Below, one piece after another: positions 949-23,586 of a DNA stretch of 64,000 bases. Within the stretch, counting starts at the first letter, position 1; every line of letters starts with the position of its first letter. The notes beneath the pieces are model-generated. The model was not told the DNA's origin, ran no database searches, and saw only the letters and a program-made list of their open reading frames with translations. Source of the DNA: Synechococcales cyanobacterium C42_A2020_086 (GTDB lineage: Bacteria; Cyanobacteriota; Cyanobacteriia; Elainellales; Elainellaceae); the NCBI GenBank assembly GCA_015272325.1, contig JACYLU010000004.1, forward strand, positions 1 to 64,000, in the 5' to 3' direction. The position numbers and the translations under genes are program-made.

Positions 949-1042
949 TGTCTAACTACTGCATGCAACGGAACGGAAGCATACGCTATCTGTTATTTTG
1001 CAAAGTGCAAGTCCGTCCGCTGATGCAGATGACGTTAGTCTG
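949..1042 (+). repeat. attC-like element E1
   Basis: The left arm starts at CTAAC (952-956) and the right arm ends at GTTAG (1034-1038). After a mismatched stretch, left TGCATGCAACGGAACGG pairs with the complement of CCGTCCGCTGATGCA on the right, leaving one unpaired G in the left arm. Paired outer core, unpaired spacer and one extrahelical base in the left arm is the architecture of integron attC sites. It directly follows the TPR lipoprotein gene in the same orientation, as a cassette-end attC should. The outer cores only approximate the RYYYAAC/GTTRRRY consensus. Confidence 0.6.
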
Positions 1043-1244
1043 CTCAAGCTAATGGTAGGGCAGAAAATTGAAGGTTGTCCCTTGGGAATATGTCCGAGTT
1101 CGGTAAGAGGGATAGCCTGATTAGAGAGTGAAACATCTGTCTGGTTGAGCGCAAAAAGTTCTGTAAGTTGCTGTAGCCCTTGCCACCAAGATTTCTGAAT
1201 GGAGTTATCCTGGAGCAAGAAGTTTTTCCTCAGACAGATCGTGC
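1043..1244. other. Non-coding stretch before the NACHT gene
   Basis: About 200 bases between attC-like element E1 and the NACHT gene. The minus strand is open across it (1242 to about 1050) and the translation looks mildly protein-like (segment NSIQKSWWQGLQQLTELF), but it has no start region of its own and runs through E1. It could be a gene remnant or chance. A promoter for the downstream gene is expected here, but no clear -35/-10 pair was found. Confidence 0.3.
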
Positions 1245-4200
1245 ATGTCGAAGCAAACCTACAACTGGAAACGATTTTGGTGTTCTCGTACCGCCCGGAT
1301 TGATCTGAGCGATCGAGGCTATCTAGTCGATCCAGAATCAGAATGGGGCAGACACGCAAATCCTGAACTGGTTGGGTTGGAGTCGATCGCTGACGTTCCA
1401 TGCCTAGTTTTGTTAGGAGAGCCAGGAATTGGTAAAAGCGAAGCAATTAAAAAAGCAACAGAAATTAAAACTTATAACCAAGATCCACTGGTCTTAGATC
1501 TGCATTCATATGGTAATGAAGACAGGCTGGTTAAAAATTTATTTGAAAGTTCGCAGTTTAGAGCTTGGGGTGAAGGCAATCATGCTCTGCATATTTTCCT
1601 AGATAGCTTAGATGAGTGCTTATTGCGGATAGACAATGTGACTGCTCTATTGGCTGAGGAGTTTGAGCGACATCAGGATAAGGTCGATCGTTTATTCCTC
1701 CGAATTGTCTGTCGAACGGCTATGTGGCAATCTTCCTTTGAGAAACAACTCCAGCAAATCTGGGGAGAGGATAAAGTTAAAGTCTATGAATTAGCACCAC
1801 TTCGTTGGCTTGATGTTAGGCATGCAGCAGAATGTGAAGGAATCAAAGAGCCTGATCTCTTTATGCAGGAAATTTGGGACAAAAGGGTTGTGCCTTTAGC
1901 GGTAAAACCGATTACACTAGGATTCCTCCTCAATATATATCGCCGCAATGGTCGATTCTCTCAACAACAAACTTTGTTCCACTTATACCTTGAGGGCTGT
2001 CGTATTTTGTGCGACGAGGAAGAAGATAAACCAAATCTTCTGCTTCCGGGACGTGAAGGAAATTTAGAGCTAGATCAACGTCTTATCATTGCTGCTCGAA
2101 TCGCAGCAGTGACAGTTTTTGCAAACCGTGATGCGGTTTGGACAGGACGCGATCGTGGGCAAATTCCAGAAGAAGATATACTACCTCAGAAATTAGCGCA
2201 AGGTTATGAGAAGGCAAACGAAAGACCGATTGAAGTAAAGGAAGAGTCTGTTACAGAGGTCTTACGGACTGGGTTGTTCTCCTCTCGGGGTGCAAATCGC
2301 ATGGGGTGGGCGCATCAAACCTATGCAGAATTTCTAGCCGCGTGGTATCTGAAGCAACACAATCTCAATTTGAGTCAAATTCTCAATTTAATTATTCATC
2401 CCGATCACAGGGTTATTCCTCAGCTACAGGAAACGACAGCTTGGTTAGCGAGTATGATGCCTGAAGTGTTTCAGAAAGTCATGAAAACTGATCCAGATGT
2501 GTTGCTTCAAAGCGATATATCAACGATCGATCATGAAAATAAAGCACAATTAATCGAATCATTACTCAAGTTACACCACGAGGAGAAGCTTAAATATGAC
2601 TGGCGGCGGTACAACAATCTGAATTATCCAGGATTAGCAGCGCTACTCGAATCCTATATTCGCGATTCTTCTAAGAATCAATGGGCAAGGTTGGTTGCGA
2701 TCGACATCACCCAAGACTGTAACGTGAAAGCAGTACAAAATAGCCTTGCTGATATTGCGCTTGATCCAACCCAACTGTATATGGTTCGGACACATGCAGC
2801 CCATACTATTTGTGTTATCGGTGATGAGGAGACAAAGACGCGACTCAAGCCTCTTGCAGTGGGTGAAGCCGGAGACGCTCCTAATGATGATCTCAAAGGC
2901 TATGCTCTTCGCGCTATTTGGTCACAACACATCACTGTAGAAGAACTGCTGAATCATCTCTCGCAACCCAAGCAGAGGGGGGCATTTCCGATTATTGGTG
3001 GAGTATATCAAGATTTCATTGCGACAGAATTTGCAGAACATCTTCGGTTGTCTGACTTACCAGTTACACTCAAATGGCTTGAACAATTACCTCGGAGATA
3101 CAATTTACATTATCCGTTTAGAGAACTGGCTGATTCAGTGATGCTGAAAGCGTGGCAAAACCTGAATGAACCTGGTGTACTTGAGGCGTTTGCTAACGTA
3201 GCTATTCTTAGGCTAAAACAGCATGACGGAATTCTAGGCGATCGCCCACACCGAGCGTATACTCGTGAAAGTTCCAATTGTACTCATGATGCTGACGTGG
3301 AATCCTCGCTAAGGGATTCTGATGGAAAACGTCGGCAACTGATAGAAACAATAGTCTTACTAATTTCAGAATCAGAAAGTGATTTCTTATGGCTCACAGA
3401 CATTGTTTGTTCTGAAGACGTGTCGTGGATAATCGAGAAAACTATATCAGCAGAGTCCCATAGAATTGCTAATATTTGGGTCAAGCTTTTAAGCCAAGCC
3501 CTAACCTGGCATAACTTAATTTGGAAATATACAAAGCATATTGATGCTATCCTAAAAGCCTGTAATGTCAGCTCGGTGATGAGACGAGAGTTTGAGTCTG
3601 ATATTACCCCAATCGAATTGAATTCAGAGAAGGCTGAGCAAATAAAAACTAGCTGTTTGAGACGACGAGAACCACCTCAGCCAGAACCTACACTTGATCC
3701 GCCACCCAAGCAAAGAGTGCTTACCGCTTTAGAAAAAGTTGAAGCAGGACAACCTCAATTGTGGTGGCAGATAGTTGTTGAAATGACACTGATGCCAATC
3801 AGCGAAAAATATATCCACGACCATGTTTTTGAGTCAGATATAACAAGACTACCTGGATGGAAAGAAGCAGAAGCAAATACTAAGGCAAGAATTGTCAAAG
3901 CTGCAAAAAAATATCTGGATGCTAAAGATCCAGAAACTGAAGAATGGCTGGGTACAAATAAGTTCTCTCATCCTCCATTTGCAGGATATCAAGCGCTATA
4001 CCTTCTAGTAAAACAAGAGCCAGATTTCATCTCAACGATTTCTACTGATACTTGGGCAAAATGGATACCCGTCATTCTGAAATCTATAAATTTCTCTCAT
4101 AGAAATACAGAGGGTAAAGAGAATAACGTTTGTCAAGAGATAGTGAAGACTGCCTATCAAAGCGCTCCAGATGCATTAGTTGAAACACTTATCAGTTTAA

Positions 4201-5549
4201 TGGTTCACAACAACTATCAACCTCATACCTTTTACGATGATGATGTTTATCGATTAACTAATGAGTTATTAGATCAATGTTTAGCCAGTTTAATTATTGA
4301 TAGAGTTCCAGATGAAAACTTAAATGCTGGTATGCTGGAAATTTTGCTAACTGATCTGTTCAAGCATGACATTGATAAAGCCAAAGAAATTGCCAAGTCT
4401 TTTCTTCCGGCAAAAGTGCCAGAACTTGGGGAGGCAAGGAATAAAGCGATCGTTGCTGCTCGTTTGCTTGCAAACTATCCCGATAACTCTAGTTGGTCAG
4501 CTTTTTGGTCTGCCGTGCAACAAGACCATGAATTTGGACGAGAAGCATTAGAGTCTATTGCATTTCAGGCTGCTCGTCAAGGTCAAATTGAGCAAAAGAT
4601 TAAAGAGAATTATCTAGCCGATCTGTATATTTTTCTTGCCCAGCAATACCCAGAGATTGAGCAACCTGAGCTTGAAACGCAGGAACTCAGGGGTATAGAA
4701 GCTCAAATATTAAGAGAATTTGATGGTGTCAGGATGTGGAAAAATTATATCCCTCAACGTCTTCAAGCACGAGGTACTCCAGAAGCTTGCGATGCACTAC
4801 GGAAGATTATTTGCGAACTTCCAGAACAAAAAGAACAACTACAGCCGACACTACTGGAAGCCGAGAGTTTGGCACGTCGTAATACTTGGAAACCGCTCAG
4901 ACCAGAGGAGTTACTTCAGATTATTCTAAATCAAGATAAACGTCTGGTCAGGGATGGTCATCAGCTTCTCGATGTATTGCTCGAATCATTGAAGCGTCTT
5001 GAATTGGAACTGCAAGGGGAAACCTCGGCTTGTAGAGACTTATGGGACAAGGATAAAGGTAGCGATGCCTTGTTCAGACCGATTGATGAAAATGCATTTT
5101 CGGATTATGTCAAGCGATTTCTTGATAGAGATCTAAAGTCGAGAGGTATTGTTGTTAACCGTGAAGTAGAGCTAAGACGCAAATATGGAGGCAATCCGGG
5201 CGAACGAACTGATATTCATGTAGATGCTGTTCTCAAAAATTCCAACGGTAACACATATGATTCAATCACTGTCATCATTGAAGTAAAAGGATGCTGGCAT
5301 AGCGAGGTTCAAACTGCCATGCAAAGCCAGCTTGTTGAACGCTATTTGTCTGATAACGTATGTCCCTATGGATTGTACTTGGTTGGCTGGTTTAATTGTC
5401 AGCAATGGAATGACGAAGATTCTCGTAAGAAACAAGCGCCACAAATAACTTTAAATCAAGCAAGAATACAGTTTGATGAGCAAGCCCAACGTCTTACTTC
5501 ATCTGTTAATACAGTACGAGCTTATGTACTAAATACAGCTTTGAGATGA
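1245..5549 (+). CDS. NACHT/STAND NTPase with C-terminal PD-(D/E)XK-like nuclease
   Basis: The 1434-residue protein opens with an NTPase module. A Walker A loop GEPGIGKS lies at residues 58-65 and a Walker B LHIFLDSLDE at 115-124; the D-x-x-D-E form is typical of NACHT and related STAND ATPases. A long helical middle section (about 400-1250) follows, probably a repeat-type sensor or scaffold, but I see no clean repeat. Near the C-terminus D1323 and E1346-V-K1348 form the D...ExK core of a restriction-like nuclease (GERTDIHVDAV, then ITVIIEVKG). STAND NTPases joined to such nucleases are known as anti-phage sensors that cut DNA when triggered. That role here is inference. An antitoxin/PIN toxin pair starts 21 bases after the stop, and attC-like elements bracket the whole block. 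The ATG at 1245 leaves a short N-terminal segment before the P-loop. Confidence 0.8.
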   Translation: MSKQTYNWKRFWCSRTARIDLSDRGYLVDPESEWGRHANPELVGLESIADVPCLVLLGEPGIGKSEAIKKATEIKTYNQDPLVLDLHSYGNEDRLVKNLFESSQFRAWGEGNHALHIFLDSLDECLLRIDNVTALLAEEFERHQDKVDRLFLRIVCRTAMWQSSFEKQLQQIWGEDKVKVYELAPLRWLDVRHAAECEGIKEPDLFMQEIWDKRVVPLAVKPITLGFLLNIYRRNGRFSQQQTLFHLYLEGCRILCDEEEDKPNLLLPGREGNLELDQRLIIAARIAAVTVFANRDAVWTGRDRGQIPEEDILPQKLAQGYEKANERPIEVKEESVTEVLRTGLFSSRGANRMGWAHQTYAEFLAAWYLKQHNLNLSQILNLIIHPDHRVIPQLQETTAWLASMMPEVFQKVMKTDPDVLLQSDISTIDHENKAQLIESLLKLHHEEKLKYDWRRYNNLNYPGLAALLESYIRDSSKNQWARLVAIDITQDCNVKAVQNSLADIALDPTQLYMVRTHAAHTICVIGDEETKTRLKPLAVGEAGDAPNDDLKGYALRAIWSQHITVEELLNHLSQPKQRGAFPIIGGVYQDFIATEFAEHLRLSDLPVTLKWLEQLPRRYNLHYPFRELADSVMLKAWQNLNEPGVLEAFANVAILRLKQHDGILGDRPHRAYTRESSNCTHDADVESSLRDSDGKRRQLIETIVLLISESESDFLWLTDIVCSEDVSWIIEKTISAESHRIANIWVKLLSQALTWHNLIWKYTKHIDAILKACNVSSVMRREFESDITPIELNSEKAEQIKTSCLRRREPPQPEPTLDPPPKQRVLTALEKVEAGQPQLWWQIVVEMTLMPISEKYIHDHVFESDITRLPGWKEAEANTKARIVKAAKKYLDAKDPETEEWLGTNKFSHPPFAGYQALYLLVKQEPDFISTISTDTWAKWIPVILKSINFSHRNTEGKENNVCQEIVKTAYQSAPDALVETLISLMVHNNYQPHTFYDDDVYRLTNELLDQCLASLIIDRVPDENLNAGMLEILLTDLFKHDIDKAKEIAKSFLPAKVPELGEARNKAIVAARLLANYPDNSSWSAFWSAVQQDHEFGREALESIAFQAARQGQIEQKIKENYLADLYIFLAQQYPEIEQPELETQELRGIEAQILREFDGVRMWKNYIPQRLQARGTPEACDALRKIICELPEQKEQLQPTLLEAESLARRNTWKPLRPEELLQIILNQDKRLVRDGHQLLDVLLESLKRLELELQGETSACRDLWDKDKGSDALFRPIDENAFSDYVKRFLDRDLKSRGIVVNREVELRRKYGGNPGERTDIHVDAVLKNSNGNTYDSITVIIEVKGCWHSEVQTAMQSQLVERYLSDNVCPYGLYLVGWFNCQQWNDEDSRKKQAPQITLNQARIQFDEQAQRLTSSVNTVRAYVLNTALR

Positions 5550-5570
5550 CTAAACCAATGGAGAAAGCTC

Positions 5571-5813
5571 ATGCAAATTACGATCGACCTACCTCAAGAT
5601 CTTGAACAAGACCTGCTCCGTCGAGCGGCTCAATCCAACGTTCCACTCCAAACCCTAATTATTCAAGCCTTACGCCAACTCACTCAACCTGTCTCTGCCC
5701 CAGTTTCTCAATGGTCAGATGTCGTTTTATCTTATCAAGGAATTCCTGATTTTCCGGCCTTCGAGTCCTACCGGAATGAACTCCTTCCACCGCAAGAGAT
5801 AGAGCTATTCTGA
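5571..5813 (+). CDS. Putative ribbon-helix-helix-type antitoxin of a PIN toxin
   Basis: An 80-residue protein whose start (MQITIDLPQDLEQDLLRRAA) reads like a strand followed by two helices, as in small RHH or VapB-like antitoxins. The second half (WSDVVLSYQGIPDFPAFESY) is probably the toxin-neutralising tail. Its stop shares one base with the start of the downstream PIN-domain toxin gene (TGATG), a coupling typical of antitoxin-toxin operons. It would bind and inhibit the toxin and repress the operon. It lies 21 bases after the NACHT-nuclease gene, so it may be co-transcribed with it. I infer the antitoxin role mainly from size, fold and partner. Confidence 0.75.
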   Translation: MQITIDLPQDLEQDLLRRAAQSNVPLQTLIIQALRQLTQPVSAPVSQWSDVVLSYQGIPDFPAFESYRNELLPPQEIELF

Positions 5814-6217
5814 TGCGATACCTTCTTGATACCTGCGTCATTAGTGATTTCATCAAAGGTGAACTTGGGACGCAAGCCCGACTCAAGCAAATACCACCTA
5901 CTGATATTGCGGTTTCAGTCATTACAGTGATGGAATTGCGTTATGGCTTGCTTATCAACCCTCAACGTGCTCAAAAGGTTGAGCCCGTGATCTCCAGTTT
6001 TCTTGCTTCTGTCACAGTCCTTTCTTTTGGCAATGCAGAAGCTGAACAAGCGGCTCAAATTCGTGCTATTCTCAAGACTCAAGGGCAGCCGATCGGTGCT
6101 TACGATGTGTTGATTGCTTCAACTGCTTTGCAACACAACCTGCTCATGGTCACTGCGAATCAGCGAGAATTTGATCGAGTCCCCAGCTTACAGACTGAGA
6201 ACTGGCGACAGTTGTAG
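5813..6217 (+). CDS. vapC: PIN-domain ribonuclease toxin (VapC-like)
   Basis: A 134-residue PIN-domain protein. The acidic residues expected to bind the catalytic metal are present: D6 (MRYLLDTCVISDFI), E41 (TVMELRYGL), D98 (GAYDVLIAS) and D121, with N116 beside it. VapC toxins are RNases that cut tRNA or rRNA when their antitoxin is degraded. All active-site positions look intact and the length is typical, so it is probably functional. It is translationally coupled to the upstream antitoxin gene and ends 24 bases before attC-like element E2, as expected for the last gene of a cassette. Subfamily and target cannot be assigned by eye. Confidence 0.88.
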   Translation: MRYLLDTCVISDFIKGELGTQARLKQIPPTDIAVSVITVMELRYGLLINPQRAQKVEPVISSFLASVTVLSFGNAEAEQAAQIRAILKTQGQPIGAYDVLIASTALQHNLLMVTANQREFDRVPSLQTENWRQL

Positions 6218-6240
6218 AAACCTGGGTTGAGCAAACCGCA

Positions 6241-6327
6241 GACTAACAACGCAGTGGAGCGGACGGTACAAAGTTTTTGCGCTTCGTTTCGGTGTTATCT
6301 GCCGCCGCTCACTTTAGCCGTTAGCTG
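6241..6327 (+). repeat. attC-like element E2
   Basis: The left arm starts at CTAAC (6243-6247) and the right arm ends at GTTAG (6320-6324). Left GTGGAGCGGACGG pairs with the complement of CCGCCGCTCAC, with one unpaired G in the left arm. The bases just inside the outer cores do not pair, like the unpaired central spacer of attC. It closes the block holding the NACHT-nuclease and VapC-like pair. The sequence after GTTAG (GCTGGCTCCGCA) recurs after element E4. Confidence 0.65.
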
Positions 6328-6626: not shown

Positions 6627-7937
6627 ATGAGAGGTATGCGATACTTGACTCCCGTTGAGTTCGTGAAACGCGGAGAGGGAATGGTGAACTTTGGGACTGC
6701 TCCGGATGGATTGCCTTGGATCACTCAAGTTGAGGCGCTGCCGAAGGGAGCTGCAATGCTGGCGGTGGCAGAACAAGCCTTTTCGCTGCGCGGAACGTCG
6801 CCAGATTTCGCGGGCACTCCCCTACACGACATTGCCCTATCCTTGGACAAACTGATTCAACAACACTACTCGCAGGACATCCGTACACCAGATGGGAGTG
6901 CCTTTCATGCAACGATACTGCCTCGTCCACTCAAGTTGCTACTTGGCGACACCCTTCTCCACCGCTTCCTCGTATCAGGTGCAGCGCCAAGAACTCAATT
7001 CAAAACATCCCCCCTAGGGGCAGCGACCAACGCAGTGACCACCGAGGAAACAGCGGTTGTCCAGTTCCAGATTGGAGATGCCTGCCTTGCTTTCCCCGAC
7101 CAAGGAGGAAGACTCAGCATCGTCCATATGACGCATGACCAGTTTGGGTGGCCCACTTTCACCTTTCGCCGCCCCTTTATTCAGGAGACTGTAACCGCAT
7201 TGCCAGGCGGTTTGCTTTGCCTTTTCGACAGTGCGAAGGTGGTTGCCGAACTGCCCGCTTCCGACCTGAAATCTTACTTGGACAGGAGAGGCGATTCCCT
7301 CCATGCGGACTGGAGGATTCGTGTGCCACGGGAATCTCTAGGTCAGATCATTCTCGGCATTGCCAGAACCGCACAGCGCCTCCATTCTGCGGACGAGATT
7401 CACGGAGACATAAAACCGGCGAATGTCCTTGTTGACGGCGATGACGTTCAGCTCATCGATAGCCTGTCCCTGCACGAAGGCGAGCGATCACCCGCCCTGA
7501 CCCGTGGCTGGGCAGCACCGGAGCAGGTGATGGCTACAGAGGTAACAGCAAGCACAGATCAATTTCCGATCGGTTTAATGTTGCTGGCACTTGTCCAAGG
7601 GGTATTGTTCGGGGAAGAAACAACCGTTGTCGTGCCATCTGGCGGGTCCAAGATCGAACGCCACGTGATCTTCCGAAGTCCCGGCGTCTTCATCGACCCG
7701 AACATGGGAACGGTCAATGAGTCGTACATTCATGCTTGGCAGAAGATGATTGAGAAGTGTCTCCGCTTCTCCCCTTCGGATCGATTCCCAGCGGTGGGCG
7801 ATCTCGTGGGTGAACTCGATTCTCTCTTGGTTGCGAAATCCCTATATGGCTGGTGTGAGTGCGCATTGCGCTTTGGACGAGCATCATCTGCGATCAGCAG
7901 CAATGGCAAAGAGGTATCCGTCTGGTTGTCCGGGTGA
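6627..7937 (+). CDS. Protein-kinase-like protein in a cassette
   Basis: A 436-residue protein with a recognisable kinase C-lobe. The catalytic loop reads HGDIKPANVL (H259, D261, K263, N266), the metal-binding motif is IDSL (D278, in place of DFG) and the APE motif is AAPEQ (residues 297-299). The usual glycine-rich loop is not obvious, so the first 230 residues, whose family I do not recognise, may hold a divergent N-lobe or another domain. If active it would phosphorylate Ser/Thr on unknown partners. It is the only gene between attC-like elements E2 and E3. A GGAG three bases before the ATG at 6627 supports that start, but Met4 is also possible. Standalone kinases occur among phage-defence genes; any such role here is speculation. 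Confidence 0.7.
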   Translation: MRGMRYLTPVEFVKRGEGMVNFGTAPDGLPWITQVEALPKGAAMLAVAEQAFSLRGTSPDFAGTPLHDIALSLDKLIQQHYSQDIRTPDGSAFHATILPRPLKLLLGDTLLHRFLVSGAAPRTQFKTSPLGAATNAVTTEETAVVQFQIGDACLAFPDQGGRLSIVHMTHDQFGWPTFTFRRPFIQETVTALPGGLLCLFDSAKVVAELPASDLKSYLDRRGDSLHADWRIRVPRESLGQIILGIARTAQRLHSADEIHGDIKPANVLVDGDDVQLIDSLSLHEGERSPALTRGWAAPEQVMATEVTASTDQFPIGLMLLALVQGVLFGEETTVVVPSGGSKIERHVIFRSPGVFIDPNMGTVNESYIHAWQKMIEKCLRFSPSDRFPAVGDLVGELDSLLVAKSLYGWCECALRFGRASSAISSNGKEVSVWLSG

Positions 7938-8063: not shown

Positions 8064-8387
8064 TCACGAAGCAACAACGCGCGTTTGAGCTTGTGCATGA
8101 GATTTAGGCTTCACTACAATTTCCACATCTCGCCCCAAAGCATTGAGAAAGCGAAACAATCGTGCGGTCGAAAAACCTGCTAATTTTCCATTGATTAATG
8201 CCGAGATTTTAGGTTGGTCAATTCCTAACGCCTCTGCTGCCTCAATTTGAGTCATTTTTTGAGTTGTTATGATACTGCTGATCCGCCGAGCAAGTTCTGC
8301 TTTAACCAGCAATTCGTCAGCATTGTCCAAACTCAAATCTGCAAACACGTTGCCGCTACTGGCTTGCACTCCAATTTCTTCAGTCAT
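8064..8387 (-). CDS. higA: HigA-like XRE-family antitoxin
   Basis: A 107-residue protein with a Cro/C1-type helix-turn-helix (about residues 42-75; TQIEAAEALGIDQPKISALI covers both helices). The following LFRFLNALGRDVEIVV is typical of HigA-type antitoxins paired with Gp49-like toxins. It should bind its own promoter and neutralise the HigB-like toxin encoded just upstream, whose stop lies two bases before this start. The start has a strong AAGGAG. The toxin-before-antitoxin order is the usual higBA arrangement. Orientation is opposite to the other cassette genes, as expected for a toxin-antitoxin cassette with its own promoter. Confidence 0.88.
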   Translation of the reverse strand: MTEEIGVQASSGNVFADLSLDNADELLVKAELARRISSIITTQKMTQIEAAEALGIDQPKISALINGKLAGFSTARLFRFLNALGRDVEIVVKPKSHAQAQTRVVAS

Positions 8388-8389
8388 TT

Positions 8390-8767
8390 TTACTCTCCTT
8401 GATGTTTGCTGTAGTTTTGTGAATAGTGTTCCTTGGCTCGCTTCAGTCTTGCTTCGATCAGGTCAATATCCTGCTTAGGCGTAGCAATACCTTGCTTTGA
8501 TTTTTTCTGGAAAGCGTGTAAGACGTAGACCACTCCAGCCAGTTTTACCGTGTAGACAGCTCGATAAGTATCTCCGTCAAAATTTTCTACAATTTCTAGT
8601 ACCCCAGTTCCCCTAAATCCTTTGAGCGGCTTGGCTGAGGGATGCTTTTCCCCACATTGAGCTAAGTACAATGCGTACCCAACGGTTTGCCGCACATCCT
8701 CTGGGAACTCCTTTAAATCATCCAGAGAACTTCCGACCCATTCAACTGGCTTTGGCGATGCATTCAT
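8390..8767 (-). CDS. higB: HigB-like toxin (Gp49/RelE superfamily)
   Basis: A 125-residue protein of the phage Gp49-like HigB group. Family-like segments are LKEFPEDVRQTVGYAL, KPLKGFRGTGVLEIVENFDG and VVYVLHAFQKKSKQGIATP, the last being the RelE-fold C-terminal strand and helix. Such toxins cut ribosome-associated mRNA. Length is normal and no disruption is seen. It is the first gene of a pair with the XRE antitoxin and would be transcribed leftwards from a promoter around 8780-8830, where the sequence is AT-rich. The pair lies between attC-like element E3 and the half-element E4. Confidence 0.87.
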   Translation of the reverse strand: MNASPKPVEWVGSSLDDLKEFPEDVRQTVGYALYLAQCGEKHPSAKPLKGFRGTGVLEIVENFDGDTYRAVYTVKLAGVVYVLHAFQKKSKQGIATPKQDIDLIEARLKRAKEHYSQNYSKHQGE

Positions 8768-17232: not shown

Positions 17233-19512
17233 TTACAGCCGTTCGTGGAAGGTGCGACTGATCACGTCGAGCTGCTGCTCACGGGTCAGCTTGATGAAGT
17301 TGACCGCATAGCCGGACACCCGAATCGTGAGTTGGGGATAGCTCTCGGGATGCTCCATGGCATCAAGCAACGTATCACGATTCAGGACGTTGATATTGAC
17401 GTGATGCCCCTGATTGTGGAAATAACCGTCAAGTAGACCTGCTAAATTACGAATCTGTGTTTCCTTGACCTTGCCGAGGGCAGGCGGCACGATCGAGAAG
17501 GTATAGGAGATACCATCCTGAGCATGCTCGTAGGGCAGTTTTGCGACCGATTCTAGCGAAGCAACAGCACCCTGAGTATCGCGCCCATGCATTGGGTTGG
17601 CACCGGGAGCAAAGGGTTCACCTGCCTTACGACCATCGGGCGTATTGCCAGTTTTCTTGCCGTAGACGACGTTAGAGGTAATTGTCAGCACCGACTGGGT
17701 GGGCACGGCATTGCGGTAGGTTTTATGCTTCCGCACCTTGTTCATGAACGACTTCACCAGATTCACAGCGATGTCATCGACGCGGTCATCGTTGTTTCCA
17801 TACTTGGGGTAGTCGCCCTCAATGGCGTAGTCCACTGCCAATCCAGATTCATTGCGGATCACGTGCACCTTAGCATATTTAATTGCCGACAGCGAATCAG
17901 CCACCACTGACAACCCAGCAATACCACAAGCCATCGTGCGCAGAATATCGCGATCGTGCAGCGCCATTTCCAGTCGCTCGTAGCAGTATTTGTCATGCAT
18001 GTAGTGGATGACGTTCAGCGTGTTGACATAGAGTTTAGCCAGCCACTCCATCATGTCCTCTAGTTTCTGCATCACCTCGGTGTAGTCGAGCACATCCGCT
18101 GTGATGGGCGCATAGGCGGGACCCACCTGCTGTCCATCTTTTTCATCCTTGCCGCCATTGATTGCGTAGAGCAGGCATTTCGCCAAGTTGACGCGAGCGC
18201 CAAAAAACTGCATCTGTTTGCCGATCCGCATCGCCGAAACACAGCAGGCAATTGCGTAATCGTCTCCCCAGTAGGGACGCATTAAATCGTCATTTTCGTA
18301 CTGGATTGAGCTAGTGTCGATCGAGACTTGAGCGCAGAACTGCTTGAAGGGATCGGGCAGGCGGGTTGACCACAACACCGTCAGATTCGGTTCGGGAGCC
18401 GGACCCAGGGTATAGAGGGTATTCAAGAAGCGGAAGCTGGTTTTCGTAACCAAGGGGCGACCATCTTCACCCATGCCGCCGATTGATTCCGTGACCCAAA
18501 CCGGATCGCCCGAGAAGAGTTGGTTATAGTCGGGCGTACGTAGGAAGCGCACCACTCGCAGCTTCATCACAAAATGATCGATCAGCTCCTGCGCTTCGGA
18601 TTCGGTGAGGCTACCGTTTTGCAAATCACGCTCGATATAGATATCCAGGAACGTAGATACCCGCCCCAACGACATCGCCGCGCCGTTTTGTTCTTTGATT
18701 GCGCCTAGATAGGCAAAGTAGGTCCACTGTATAGCTTCGCGAGCGGTCATGGCCGGACGACTGATATCGAAGCCATAGCTGGCCGCCATCTGCTTCAGCT
18801 CGTTCAGGGCATCAATCTGATCGCTGAGTTCTTCGCGCAGCCGGATGGTGTCTTCGTCCATCACGTCCACTTCCAGAGACTCTTGCTGCATCTGTTTATC
18901 GGCGATCAATCGATCCACGCCGTAGAGTGCCACGCGGCGATAGTCACCAATGATCCGACCCCGTCCGTAGGCATCCGGCAAGCCGGTAATGATGCCTGAG
19001 TGTCGCGCCAGCCGCATTTCGCGAGTGTAAGCATCGAACACGCCGTCATTGTGGGTCTTGCGATAGCGGGTGAAAATCTCGAAGGTTTCTGGATCGAGCT
19101 GGTAGCCGTAGGCTTCCAATGAGCTGCGCACCACGCGGATGCCGCCCAACGGCATGATGGCTCGCTTCAGGGGTTTGTCGGTTTGCAGCCCAACGATCTG
19201 TTCTAGTGTTTGGTCGATATAGCCTGGCGCATGGGCAGTAATCCCCGTCGGAATTTTGGTATCGGCGTCAAGGACACCTTTTTCCCGCTCCAGCTTCATC
19301 AGCTGACAGACACGCTGCCACAGGGCTTGAGTCCGCTCGGTGGCTCCTGTTAAGAAAGCACTGTCGCCCGTGTAGGGCGTTACGTTTTGTTGAATAAAGC
19401 TGCGAACGTCAATTTCGTCGATCCACCGTCCGGGCACAAAGCCGTGCCATGCCTCGGGTTGCAGTGAGCGAGTACTGACCTCGGCGGGTGGTTTGACAGG
19501 GGTGGTAACCAT
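17233..19512 (-). CDS. pflB: Pyruvate formate-lyase (formate acetyltransferase)
   Basis: A 759-residue glycyl radical enzyme converting pyruvate and CoA to acetyl-CoA and formate. The adjacent catalytic cysteines are C423-C424 ([10 protein letters not shown]) and the radical glycine is G734 in RVSGYAVNF near the C-terminus. I start it at ATG 19512, which has GGAGG six bases upstream. The open frame extends 16 codons further but without support. pflA lies just downstream and the ethanol-forming adhE upstream on the same strand, so acetyl-CoA made here would feed AdhE to regenerate NAD during dark fermentation. Nothing looks damaged. Confidence 0.97.
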
Positions 19513-20213
19513 CTTTTTCCTCCAATGTATCAAGTCGAGTTTCCACTGGGAAACGCCCATAGGCTGGGTGAATTGCGGCGTCTAACTTTCTGAACTCTAA
19601 CCTTCTGAACAGAGTGTTGGCAGCAGATTGTAGCGAACTGACTGTAGATGACTGTAGATACTGACTGTAGATAATCAATGCAACCAGAACAGCAGCTTTG
19701 GCAATATGCTCCGATATACTTTGTACATTTCAAAAAGTCTATCGATCACATTCGAGAGCTATATTTTGCTTCATCAAACCGGTGAATAATACTTAGAAAA
19801 CTCCTTGCCTGCTAGCTGATGAAGCTCATATTCAAGCCGGCTGCTATTAATCTGCCACTGAATGGGTTGGTTCCATGAAATTGGCTGATTCACCTGGCTT
19901 GTTTGCCGAATCGATTTCCCGAATCGATGAATTTGATGAATCTGTAGCGCGTGTTCTGGAAATGCTGAACATCTTCACTCTTACTACACCCTTATTTTAG
20001 GAAGAAGTACTCATGCGATGAACTTTCGTTCACGATTGTTGATGATGTGAGGATTTGGAAACATAGACGATAAAGCAAGGACGATAGAGTAAGCCAGGGA
20101 GTTCTGCAGGCATCGAGCATTGAGTCAACGTCTACAGAACCTCCGTCACGAGGGATTGGCAAGATGGATTGGTAAGAGGTGAGCCAGTCACGAACCCTCT
20201 TGTGACCGCCCCG
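19513..20213. other. 700-base region between adhE and pflB
   Basis: No gene seen. GACTGTAGAT occurs three times at 19640, 19650 and 19663. CCGAATCGAT appears twice around 19906-19931. The pflB promoter should lie in the part near 19560-19800, where the sequence is AT-rich, but I cannot place boxes. The size of the gap suggests that pflB has its own promoter rather than relying on adhE read-through. Confidence 0.5.
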
Positions 20214-22886
20214 CTACACCGGCTGCGGATCGGGCTTGATCTCGTCCATAGCATGCAGCGACCAGCCATTCCCGTTGATTTCAGCGCCGGCAATTGGCGA
20301 AACCCCTTCGTAGGCATCCCTCAAGAGCTGTCTGAGATCAGCAATCAGCGGGTAACGCGGGTTCGAGCCGGTACACTGATCGTCAAATGCCTGATCGGCT
20401 AAGCTGTCGAGTTTATCGTAGAACTCGGAGCGGGCTACCTGTGGAAGCACCTCTTGAATAGACATGGGAATATCCAACTGCCGCTTCAGATTTTCAATGG
20501 CTGCAATCAGATGATTGACTTTTTCTTCTTCCGTATCGCCACCCAACCCTAGATAGCTAGCAATGCGGGCATAGCGCCATTTGGCGTTGGGGTATTTGTA
20601 CTGCGAGAAGGTGGCCTGCTTGAAGGGAGCGTCGGTAGCGTTATAGCGGATGACATGCGAAATCATCAAGGCATTGGCTAGACCGTGGGGAATGTGAAAC
20701 ACACCGCCCAGCTGGTGCGCCATCGAGTGGCAGACCCCCAGGAAGGCATTTGCGAAGGCCATACCGGCAATGGTTGCGGCGTAATGGACCTTCTCCCGTG
20801 CCTTGGGATCGTTAGCGCCATTGTGATACGCACTGGGTAGGTACTTAAAGATCAGGCGAATAGCTTCCAGTGCCAAGCCGTTCGTGTATTCCGACGCCAG
20901 TACCGAGACAAAGGCTTCCAACGCGTGGGTGAGAGCATCAATGCCGCCGTAGGCCGTCAGCTTCTTCGGCATATTCAGCACCAGCTCGGGATCAACAATG
21001 GCCATTGAGGGCGTCAAAGCATAGTCGGCTAGGGGATACTTGATGTTGCTACGGCGATCGGTGACGACAGCGAAGGGGGTCACTTCTGATCCCGTACCGG
21101 AGGTGGTAGGCACAGCGACCAGCAGCGCTTTCTGACCGAGCGGCGGCAGCTCGTATACCCGCTTGCGAATATCCATGAACCGCATTGCTAGCCCTTCAAA
21201 CTCAATTTCAGGATGCTCGTACATTAGCCACATGATCTTGGCCGCATCCATGGGCGATCCGCCGCCAATGGCGATGATCACGTCGGGTTGGAAGGTATTC
21301 ATTAAGGTCAAGCCGCGCTGTACGGTATCGAGTGAGGGATCCGGCTCCACGTCGTAGAAGACATCGTACTTCAGCCCAATCGTTTCCAAGGCTTTTTCTA
21401 GCGGCTCAGTCGCTCCCAAATCGTAGAGCGGCTTGTCGGTGACGATAAACGCCCGCCGCCGTCCGGCTAGTTCTTGGATAGCTGTGAGTAGCGATCCGTA
21501 TTTGAAATACACCTTGGGCGGCACCCGGAACCAGAGCATGTTTTCCCGTCGCTCGGCCACGGTTTTGATATTCAGCAGGTGATGCGGCTCGACGTTTTCG
21601 CTGATCGAGTTGCCACCCCAAGTGCCGCAGCCTAGGGTCAGCGAGGGGTCGAGGCGGAAGTTATAGAGATCGCCAATGGCCCCTTGAGACGAGGGCGTGT
21701 TGATCAGCACTCGTGCTGTCTGCATCGTGTCTTCAAACTGCTTGATGTGGCTAGCGTTGGCAGGATCGGTGTAGAGCACGGCGGTGTGTCCCCGTCCACC
21801 AAATTCCACGAGCTGCTCAGCTTTATCCACAGCATCCTCGAAGCTGCTCGCACGATACATGGCTAAAATCGGCGATAGCTTTTCGTAGGCAAACGGTTCC
21901 TCGCCGCTAATCTCTTCTACCTCGCCGATCAGCACCCGCGTGTTTTCCGGCAAGACCAGTCCGGCTAGGGCTGCTAGCTTCTGCACCGGCTGACCGACAA
22001 TATCAGGATTGAGGCGGCCATTCACCAAAATTAATTCGCCCATGCGTTCGCGTTCGGGGGGCGTTAGGAAGTATGCGCCGCGGGCGATGAATTCTTGCTT
22101 CACCTCGTCGTAGATGTCATCGAGGACAATCACCGACTGTTCGCTGGCGCAGATCATGCCGTTGTCGAAGGTTTTGCTGAGGATAATCGAGGAAACGGCC
22201 ATCTTCAGGTGCGCCGTAGAGTCAATCAGTGCGGGAGTATTGCCAGCTCCTACCCCTAGGGACGGGTGCCCCGACGAATAGGCCGCCTTCACCATGCCCG
22301 GTCCGCCGGTAGCCAAAATTAGGTTAATGTCCGGGTGCTGCATCAGCGCCTGAGATAGCGGCACCGTGGGTTCATCGATCCAGCCGATTAAGGGAGCTGG
22401 AGCACCCGCTGCCACCGCCGCTTCGAGGACAATTTTGGCAGCTTCAATGGTGCAGTGCTTGGCGCGGGGGTGGGGCGAAAAGATGATAGCATTGCGAGTT
22501 TTCAAGGCAATCAAGGCTTTGAAGATCGCCGTCGAGGTGGGGTTGGTCGTCGGCACGATGCCGGCCAGAATGCCGACAGGTTCGGCTATTTTTTGAATGC
22601 CAAAGACTTTGTCTTCTTCGATGATGCCGCAGGTTTTTTCGGACTTGTACTTGTTGTAGATAATTTCCGACGCGAAGTGATTTTTGATCACTTTATCTTC
22701 AACAACACCCATACCCGTTTCGGAAACGGCTAGTTTGGCGAGGGGAATCCGAGCGGCATTGGCGGCGAGAGCGGCTTTTTTGAAGATAACGTCTACTTGA
22801 GCTTGCGAGAAGGTGGCGTATTGCTGTTGAGCGGCTTTAACGCGCTGAATCAACTGCTCAAGTTCTGGAATACTGGTCACTGCCAT
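20214..22886 (-). CDS. adhE: Bifunctional acetaldehyde-CoA / alcohol dehydrogenase AdhE
   Basis: An 890-residue fusion. The N-terminal aldehyde dehydrogenase half reduces acetyl-CoA to acetaldehyde, with the active-site Cys in FDNGMICASEQSVIV. The C-terminal iron-dependent alcohol dehydrogenase half makes ethanol and carries the NAD-binding GGGSPMDAAK and metal-binding histidines in FLGVCHSMAHQLGG and HIPHGLAN. I take ATG 22886 (MAVTSIPELEQL) as start, matching family N-termini; the open frame runs 22 codons further upstream. AdhE forms filaments (spirosomes) in other bacteria. With pflB and pflA it completes a formate-plus-ethanol fermentation route. Confidence 0.96.
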   Translation of the reverse strand: MAVTSIPELEQLIQRVKAAQQQYATFSQAQVDVIFKKAALAANAARIPLAKLAVSETGMGVVEDKVIKNHFASEIIYNKYKSEKTCGIIEEDKVFGIQKIAEPVGILAGIVPTTNPTSTAIFKALIALKTRNAIIFSPHPRAKHCTIEAAKIVLEAAVAAGAPAPLIGWIDEPTVPLSQALMQHPDINLILATGGPGMVKAAYSSGHPSLGVGAGNTPALIDSTAHLKMAVSSIILSKTFDNGMICASEQSVIVLDDIYDEVKQEFIARGAYFLTPPERERMGELILVNGRLNPDIVGQPVQKLAALAGLVLPENTRVLIGEVEEISGEEPFAYEKLSPILAMYRASSFEDAVDKAEQLVEFGGRGHTAVLYTDPANASHIKQFEDTMQTARVLINTPSSQGAIGDLYNFRLDPSLTLGCGTWGGNSISENVEPHHLLNIKTVAERRENMLWFRVPPKVYFKYGSLLTAIQELAGRRRAFIVTDKPLYDLGATEPLEKALETIGLKYDVFYDVEPDPSLDTVQRGLTLMNTFQPDVIIAIGGGSPMDAAKIMWLMYEHPEIEFEGLAMRFMDIRKRVYELPPLGQKALLVAVPTTSGTGSEVTPFAVVTDRRSNIKYPLADYALTPSMAIVDPELVLNMPKKLTAYGGIDALTHALEAFVSVLASEYTNGLALEAIRLIFKYLPSAYHNGANDPKAREKVHYAATIAGMAFANAFLGVCHSMAHQLGGVFHIPHGLANALMISHVIRYNATDAPFKQATFSQYKYPNAKWRYARIASYLGLGGDTEEEKVNHLIAAIENLKRQLDIPMSIQEVLPQVARSEFYDKLDSLADQAFDDQCTGSNPRYPLIADLRQLLRDAYEGVSPIAGAEINGNGWSLHAMDEIKPDPQPV

Positions 22887-23586
22887 AAGGGCTGCCTCTT
22901 GATTAATGCAAGATGGAATGCAAAGAATGCAACGTGTCCGCTTCACAAACAACGGTTCAACGACCGAATGGAATTAGTTTGCTGAGCTAGATCCGGTGCA
23001 GTAGATTGGGTGCAGTCAATTGGGTGCATAAACTCGGTAAGTGGATTAACCGCAAAACTGCTTCATTACAGAAACTAAAGCCAATGAAGTGAACGATAGT
23101 CTCACCCAAACCACAAAATCCTAAGGATGCTTAGGGATGTTTGAAGCCGGTTGGGTGTCGAGCGTGGTCCACAGCAATCTCAGTTCACACGGGTCGTACC
23201 TCTACACTTAGCTAGCGATCGTGCCGACTCACTGCAACCTGCTGCAGATCTTCTGCAGATTAACTCACCAACTGCGCCCTGAAGACACTGTCTTCTTCCT
23301 TAACAGTAGAACGATCTTTTGGGAAAGGTCCCAATGATTCAGGATTATGTAAGCTTCTCCTGTAGATGCCGGGGAGCAGTCCTTGCAGGTGAAGTGGCTG
23401 ATTTAATAAAAGCTAATACCGGCAATTCAACTTGACAATTTCCAACCAATTCTGTCGGAGGACTGTTCGCGGGATAGTTGAATAGAGGTTCGGTGAACTG
23501 CTAAGTTAATCGAGGCAAGAAACTTCCCATCGGAAGGCACGTTGTCAACCACCTGTTAGATCCTTCAGCCTGTGTGATGCGAGGTT
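22887..23586. other. 700-base intergenic region with short hairpins
   Basis: Divergent intergenic region between adhE and the GT9 gene, no coding sequence found. TTGGGAAAGGTCCCAA at 23319-23334 is a perfect 6-base-pair hairpin and CTGCAGATCTTCTGCAG near 23241 a perfect palindromic stem. TTGACA at 23432-23437 resembles a -35 box but no -10 follows at the right distance. adhE and GT9 promoters must be here. A small RNA cannot be excluded, but I recognise none. Confidence 0.4.

Follow-up and report, generated by a model that had tools for sequence, protein, structure and literature searches.

Avs proteins are receptors of the STAND family that carry a nuclease effector at the N-terminus. The accessible part of PMC12169576 describes bacterial NACHT proteins as consisting of an N-terminal effector, the NACHT domain and a C-terminal sensor, and bNACHT25 as a STAND/NACHT receptor with a nuclease effector in the N-terminal position. 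According to the accessible part of PMC8195603, GT4 domains are fused to STAND nucleoside triphosphatases (NTPases), including NACHT proteins, often at the C-terminus, and the AP-GTPases combine a single core with C-terminal domains of at least 24 kinds; C-terminal effectors and effector variability are therefore already known. Here, we analyzed a stretch of 64,000 nucleotides (the window; positions 1 to 64,000 of contig JACYLU010000004.1) from the Synechococcales cyanobacterium C42_A2020_086 with respect to a gene that encodes a large NACHT-type NTPase with a candidate PD-(D/E)XK nuclease at its C-terminus. The deduced protein resembles bNACHT25 in the pairing of a STAND/NACHT receptor with a predicted nuclease effector, but it differs from both bNACHT25 and the Avs proteins in the C-terminal location of its effector-like module. 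Only 57 residues, devoid of a separate domain, precede the P-loop, which starts at residue 58, so that the space for an N-terminal effector is small. The original prediction, made from the nucleotide sequence, had rightly drawn the contrast with N-terminal-effector receptors, although the layout itself is not new, since true members of the EruA and HyoA families have a C-terminal nuclease motif. The open reading frame (ORF) and the motifs that it had pointed out (GEPGIGKS, a DxxDE Walker B and D...ExK, including K64 and D1323) were all found in place.

Exchange of the C-terminal module

The following features of the window define the receptor gene and its exchanged part:

1034..6324, + strand: shared unit, delimited by blastn and flank sequences, with 87-89% DNA identity to relatives with other flanks, the cassette excepted
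1245..5549, + strand: NACHT-type receptor gene, a complete ATG ORF of 1434 aa, with motif and profile matches
4872..4925, + strand: conserved linker ARRNTWKPLRPEELLQII (residues 1210-1227), recognized by eye ahead of near-family modules of the nuclease, B, TM and CHAT kinds
4908..5546, + strand: exchanged cassette; homology to the DNA of L028 ends at 4907 and restarts at the stop codon at 5547
4926..5546, + strand: predicted PD-(D/E)XK-type nuclease module

Among named relatives with a complete gene, L028 from the cyanobacterium Phormidesmis priestleyi was the nearest. The DNA of the window and of L028 is 86.6% identical over positions 1041-4907 (to codon 1221) and 87.4% identical over positions 5547-6324, with no match from 4908 to 5546. 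The second homologous stretch starts with the stop codon and takes in a VapBC-like gene pair, and the protein bodies are 84% identical, whereas their modules differ. Likewise, L039 and L100 share 82.2% identity in the body and 85.2% in the 3' flank, and L097 and L095 share 82.2% and 86.7%, with unrelated modules between these stretches (B versus TM in the former pair, TM versus B in the latter). In the pairs L093/L096 and L037/L101 the body alone is common. Within the near family, the alignment to many relatives ends at about residues 1227-1257. These comparisons show that the body (residues 1-1221) serves as a chassis and that the module behind it has been exchanged in place.

The modules seen in the family comprise the PD-(D/E)XK nuclease, a CHAT protease, a GT4-conflict glycosyltransferase, a predicted membrane anchor (TM, called from hydropathy) and a cyanobacterial module of ~120 aa, termed module B. 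A survey of the class detected a relative at E<=1e-80 in 26 of 388 genomes, the own genome included. Among the 22 of these 26 with a complete 3' end, nine carry the nuclease, five module B, seven the membrane anchor and one the CHAT domain, which was seen only in L038 (1.2e-10). The rhizobial plasmid members L060 and L063 have a GT4-conflict domain at the C-terminus of the NACHT chassis (8.9e-113 and 2.9e-109, respectively), resembling the STAND-GT4 fusions in the accessible part of PMC8195603; L060 is annotated merely as 'glycosyltransferase'. The AP-GTPases belong to another NTPase family, and in-place exchange of DNA cassettes was not found for them in the accessible part of the same source. 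In the open-licence literature, no title on NACHT module exchange or C-terminal effectors was detected, and cassette exchange at the DNA level on one NACHT chassis was not found.

A tree of 36 receptor bodies requires at least 11 module changes, with a least possible number of 4 and a mean of 18.2 after shuffling of the labels; none of 200 shuffles was as low, and the labels are therefore clustered as well as swapped. In a second tree of 26 nearer proteins, which omits 10 distant rows, nine changes were counted (least possible 3, shuffled mean 12.8). A single clade was rejected in the second tree for the nuclease (p 3.4e-6), module B (2.3e-5) and TM (1.6e-52), the groups having been tested after inspection of the first tree. 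Clustering of the TM label was no better than chance in the second tree (201 of 500 shuffles as low). The trees omit L041, the gene of which is split over two ORFs, the truncated members L032/L105, L103 and L104, and the same-record duplicates L058, L091 and L092. The TM-type locus L041 (L041:8332-12292), with its receptor in two ORFs and a toxin gene matched in two pieces, has a decay-like appearance.

The receptor gene is present in one copy in the host genome (5.9 Mb). Its body shows a ratio of nonsynonymous to synonymous substitutions (dN/dS) of ~0.24 relative to L028, indicating purifying selection; since the frame is also open in homologues, the ORF is not a chance one. The left edge of the shared unit lies at 1034 (L032) or 1041 (L028) and the right edge at 6324 (L028), L032 yielding no right edge because it ends at its contig end. 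The homologous DNA of L028 and L032 has edges beyond which the sequences differ, and the earlier description of a cassette-like accessory region was therefore a fair one. As the window begins at base 1 of its contig, the left-hand context is barely known.

The receptor body and its relation to EruA and HyoA

The best family match of the window protein was the NCBIfam model EruA (NF058535, 'NACHT domain-containing antiphage protein'), with an E value of 6.3e-67 over residues 45-1400. The alignment spans positions 18-1289 of the 1318 profile positions and thus represents homology over nearly the whole profile. Judged by its profile scores, which are weighed below, the protein is a distant homologue with a common layout, outside EruA and HyoA proper. 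L065 is a true EruA (1447 bits) and L064 a true HyoA (1311 bits), both over the respective cut-off, and in an alignment of 15 tails the nuclease residues at the C-terminus are present in each of them. With EruA the window protein shares the NACHT-type NTPase, the long middle part and the C-terminal PD-(D/E)XK signature, and the HyoA layout is the same; L065 is, however, only ~16% identical to the window protein over the body. We know of no module exchange in EruA. Across the class, the HyoA profile matched in 2 of 145 genomes at 1e-30 and in none over the cut-off, and a comparison of the window protein with PHROGs gave a best value of only 0.17. Among the open-licence papers listed, none dealt with EruA or HyoA proteins, 'EruA' by title being an unrelated E. 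coli regulator or other unrelated work.

The receptor body contains the following elements:

1416..1439, + strand: P-loop (Walker A) GEPGIGKS, residues 58-65
1596..1616, + strand: Walker B FLDSLDE, residues 118-124
2313..2342, + strand: H357..EFLAA366 motif in a winged-helix-like region, with a weak NLRP3 match
2532..4844, + strand: predicted all-helical HEAT/ARM-like solenoid, residues ~430-1200, the presumed sensor (low-confidence model)

Residues D120, D123, E124, R157, P222 and A366 are invariant in 36 of 36 family members (window included), whereas G61 is kept in 34, G63 and K64 in 35 each and H357 in 32. The protein accordingly displays the motif set that marks the STAND/NACHT family, consisting of Walker A, Walker B with a downstream acidic pair, a conserved arginine, a conserved proline and the H..EFLAA region. 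The Pfam NACHT model gave no row for the window protein and stayed below its cut-off in L035, L060, L065 and L042. A profile of residues 1-620 retrieved designed alpha-repeat proteins (2.5e-4) and Clp ATPases (7.5e-4) as best rows, and NLRP3 over residues 318-375 only (E 0.03). In a structure model of residues 1-1200 with a mean predicted local distance difference test (pLDDT) score of only 62.6, the long centre is all-helical, in agreement with the original prediction. A Foldseek search with this model returned mainly importins, SF3b and CAND1 at a template modelling score of ~0.13, which indicates an alpha-solenoid and nothing further; SAMD9 (rank 22) and Avs3 (rank 43) in the same list were given little meaning. 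With low confidence throughout, a P-loop domain, a winged-helix-like region and an alpha-solenoid can be read from the profile and the model. Most relatives show low identity to the window protein around residues 600-800, and this region may be the place to look for the sensor surface. The proposed NACHT-type STAND NTPase is thus borne out by the invariant motifs and the homology to EruA and HyoA; the N-terminal part of the model, which would contain the NACHT fold, is of low confidence.

The predicted C-terminal nuclease module

The PD-(D/E)XK signature, in the order E...D...(D/E)xK...Q on the core elements, is present in the C-terminal part of the window protein: E1282, D1323, E1346, K1348 and Q1362 are invariant in all 15 nuclease-bearing members (window included), E1346-x-K1348 being located in the stretch IIEVKG downstream of D1323. 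A model of the tail (residues 1210-1434, three-row alignment) reached a pLDDT of 60.1 and a predicted template modelling score of 0.67, and its strands 113-122 and 129-140 carry D1323 and the ExK motif. The best two Foldseek rows for the tail model were the restriction enzymes Kpn2I and EcoO109I (E 0.014). After structural realignment, rows 1-17 were BamHI, EcoT38I, BglII, BstYI, Can2, EndoMS and OkrAI, all of which we take to be PD-(D/E)XK enzymes, with Z scores of 5.5-7.2 in a range (<8) that may mean little. A search of the PDB with a profile of the nuclease tail gave a single unrelated row (E 1.4). The assignment as a nuclease is therefore suggested by the signature, with which the fold search agrees; this part of the original prediction was upheld by the invariant residues and the EruA/HyoA homology, the tail model adding weak support.

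Module B and the junction ATG

Module B of L028 is 87-92% identical to the modules of L037, L039, L067 and L095, although the corresponding bodies are only 42-44% identical. By contrast, L033 has a body nearer to that of L028 (54%) and a module B with an identity of only 71%. The dN/dS ratio of module B was 0.12 (L028/L037), again reflecting purifying selection; together with the high identity across divergent chassis, this shows that module B is not debris. Relatives of module B were detected in 13 of 59 genomes of the class, and no significant Pfam match was obtained. Outside the receptors, module B is found as a free ORF of 124 aa (L108) and at the C-terminus of other proteins, several of them pentapeptide-repeat-like (among L109, L112, L115 and L119). 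An in-frame ATG stands at the module start in 19 of 20 B, TM and CHAT tails (by eye; L042 lacks it). The junction ATG is most simply explained as a scar from the fusion of a formerly separate gene, and translation from this internal start may in addition yield the non-nuclease cassettes as free proteins. The stretch GDQIGTQHN of module B resembles, as an idea only, what we take to be RHIM/BASS motifs. Since BASS is placed at the N-terminus of NLR proteins in the accessible part of PMC7889193, an amyloid motif in module B stays an idea.

The VapBC-like pair and the gene neighbourhood

Two small genes follow the receptor gene in the window:

5571..5813, + strand: small antitoxin-like protein of 80 aa, with weak CopG/Arc-like matches only
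5813..6217, + strand: PIN-domain VapC-like toxin (Pfam PIN 4.2e-18; VapC model 110 bits, under the cut-off of 140), overlapping the antitoxin gene by one base

Of the 26 near members, 13 (among them the window) have such a VapBC-like pair on the same strand, 17-39 bp after the receptor stop codon, and it was found beside nuclease, B and TM modules alike. The toxin is in two pieces in L039 and L041, and L037 retains only an antitoxin remnant. The pair was absent from the other 12 near members, from all 11 distant members and from all 17 control regions. Because it is kept on both sides of the exchange, the pair could form homology arms together with the body, or it could be an addiction module holding the locus.

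TIR and AbiEi-type genes lie within ~6 kb of the plasmid relative L059 and a SIR2 gene within ~6 kb of the plasmid relative L060; the relative L062 has a DEAD/DEAH helicase and a NACHT gene nearby. Defence-island enrichment around relatives is suggestive, not decisive.

Another gene of the window, at 6627-7937, encodes a product of 436 aa whose C-terminal domain is Ser/Thr kinase-like (Pkinase 6e-13; PD-T4-6 and MkoA matched weakly); it may be a further accessory gene. At 8064-8767 (- strand), genes for an HTH_37 protein and a Gp49-type protein lie next to each other, together a HigBA-like second toxin-antitoxin pair close by. At 17233-22952 (- strand), a pyruvate formate-lyase-like protein adjoins an aldehyde/iron alcohol dehydrogenase fusion, constituting a fermentation block in a cyanobacterium.

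Distribution of the family

The presence of the family in the class is patchy. When the threshold was relaxed to E<=0.001, 55 of 388 genomes of the class matched, many by the NTPase part alone, and a survey of the phylum at the same threshold gave matches in 20 of 292 genomes, some by the NTPase part alone. Plasmid relatives were found in 19 records, 10 of them covering >=80% of the query, with hosts including Dolichospermum, Bradyrhizobium, Rhizobium, Streptomyces and Rhodococcus. Viral contigs yielded an orphan nuclease-tail fragment of 95 aa in L121 (L121:2295-6285); close to it are a reverse transcriptase and a pair of proteins whose ends are Asn-rich, which by eye resemble a diversity-generating retroelement.

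Functional interpretation

The window gene most likely encodes a defence receptor of the NLR-like STAND type, with a NACHT domain and a C-terminal effector cassette. This reading draws on the NACHT and nuclease residues, the homology to EruA and HyoA, the CHAT and GT4 domains as known conflict effectors, the module exchange, the patchy distribution and the plasmid relatives near defence-type genes; the defence role itself we infer. In such a receptor, the helical solenoid (~430-1200) would sense an infection cue, and the NACHT core (~1-420) would bind ATP and oligomerize. Oligomerization would bring the C-terminal PD-(D/E)XK modules together, and the assembled modules would cut DNA, so that the phage is stopped or the cell killed. 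Homology in the flanks (body and VapBC-like pair) would let recombination swap the module. We also infer the effector nature of the modules, their trigger, DNA as the target and the use of the flanking homology by recombination. More tentatively, with a chance somewhat below even, the locus may be one of effector exchange, in which one NACHT chassis receives a nuclease, CHAT, GT4, membrane anchor or possible amyloid-like adaptor by recombination between the linker-bearing body and a locus-keeping VapBC-like pair, and in which non-nuclease cassettes may be free proteins too.

Several results weigh against the defence assignment. The EruA score of 226.7 bits is far below the curated cut-off of 1000, as is the HyoA (NF058534) score of 139.7 bits (8.1e-41) below that of 1200. 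The window protein has no Pfam model over cut-off, matches 0 PADLOC families at E<=1 in a library that presumably includes Avs models, and has no phmmer sequence match in the PDB at E<=1. The two structure models are both weak, and the NACHT core belongs to the poorest-modelled parts of the longer one. Foldseek gave no match for the tail at E<=0.001, unrelated acetyl-CoA carboxylases come directly after Kpn2I and EcoO109I, and unrelated proteins appear from Z ~5 on in the realigned list. With PADLOC at 1e-15, counting families hit and not proteins with hits, 113 neighbour proteins (ORFs of >=150 aa within 4.5 kb of 26 loci) gave 74 families, compared with 49 for 109 control proteins (109 of 143 such ORFs, from 13 of 17 regions). 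Of 10 neighbours searched singly, eight had no match at 1e-8, one matched a generic TPR and one was a helicase with many matches. No relative was found in phage records or, by peptide patterns, in viral contigs, and no experiment on the window protein or a close relative was found.

The same observations might be accounted for in other ways. An ordinary EruA-type antiphage protein, in which only the nuclease matters as an effector and the remaining tails are accessory or degraded ends without an effector role, would agree with the layout common to EruA and HyoA and with the nuclease as the commonest module of the class survey; since 13 of the 22 complete members bear other modules, B and TM recurrently, and module B is so well conserved across divergent chassis, we consider this unlikely. 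Differences arising from assembly or binning are hardly credible: L028, L030, L031, L032 and L033 are indeed contigs of metagenome-assembled genomes, but the nuclease, B and TM modules each occur in several genomes (CHAT once), and in three sister pairs homology restarts at or within ~40 bases after the stop codon.

A regulatory or programmed-cell-death switch for internal cyanobacterial stress, with the modules as signalling outputs, appears quite improbable. Most members found are cyanobacterial in a search that concentrated on cyanobacteria, module B is likewise found at the C-terminus of other types of protein, and NLR-like cell-death systems have been proposed for multicellular bacteria in the accessible parts of PMC8195603 and PMC7889193. 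These points are set against the patchy presence, the plasmid copies, the homologues in Bradyrhizobium, Rhizobium, Streptomyces and Rhodococcus, the VapBC-like neighbours and the homology to proteins named antiphage by NCBIfam.

Unlike the described order of effector, NACHT and sensor, the family has an effector-like module at the C-terminus that is swapped on a kept chassis, and the repeated exchange would offer an effector-swap system that is natural and unusually clean. With natural pairs like that of the window gene and L028, it can be tested directly whether unrelated effectors can be driven by one sensor and how phage escape selects among them.

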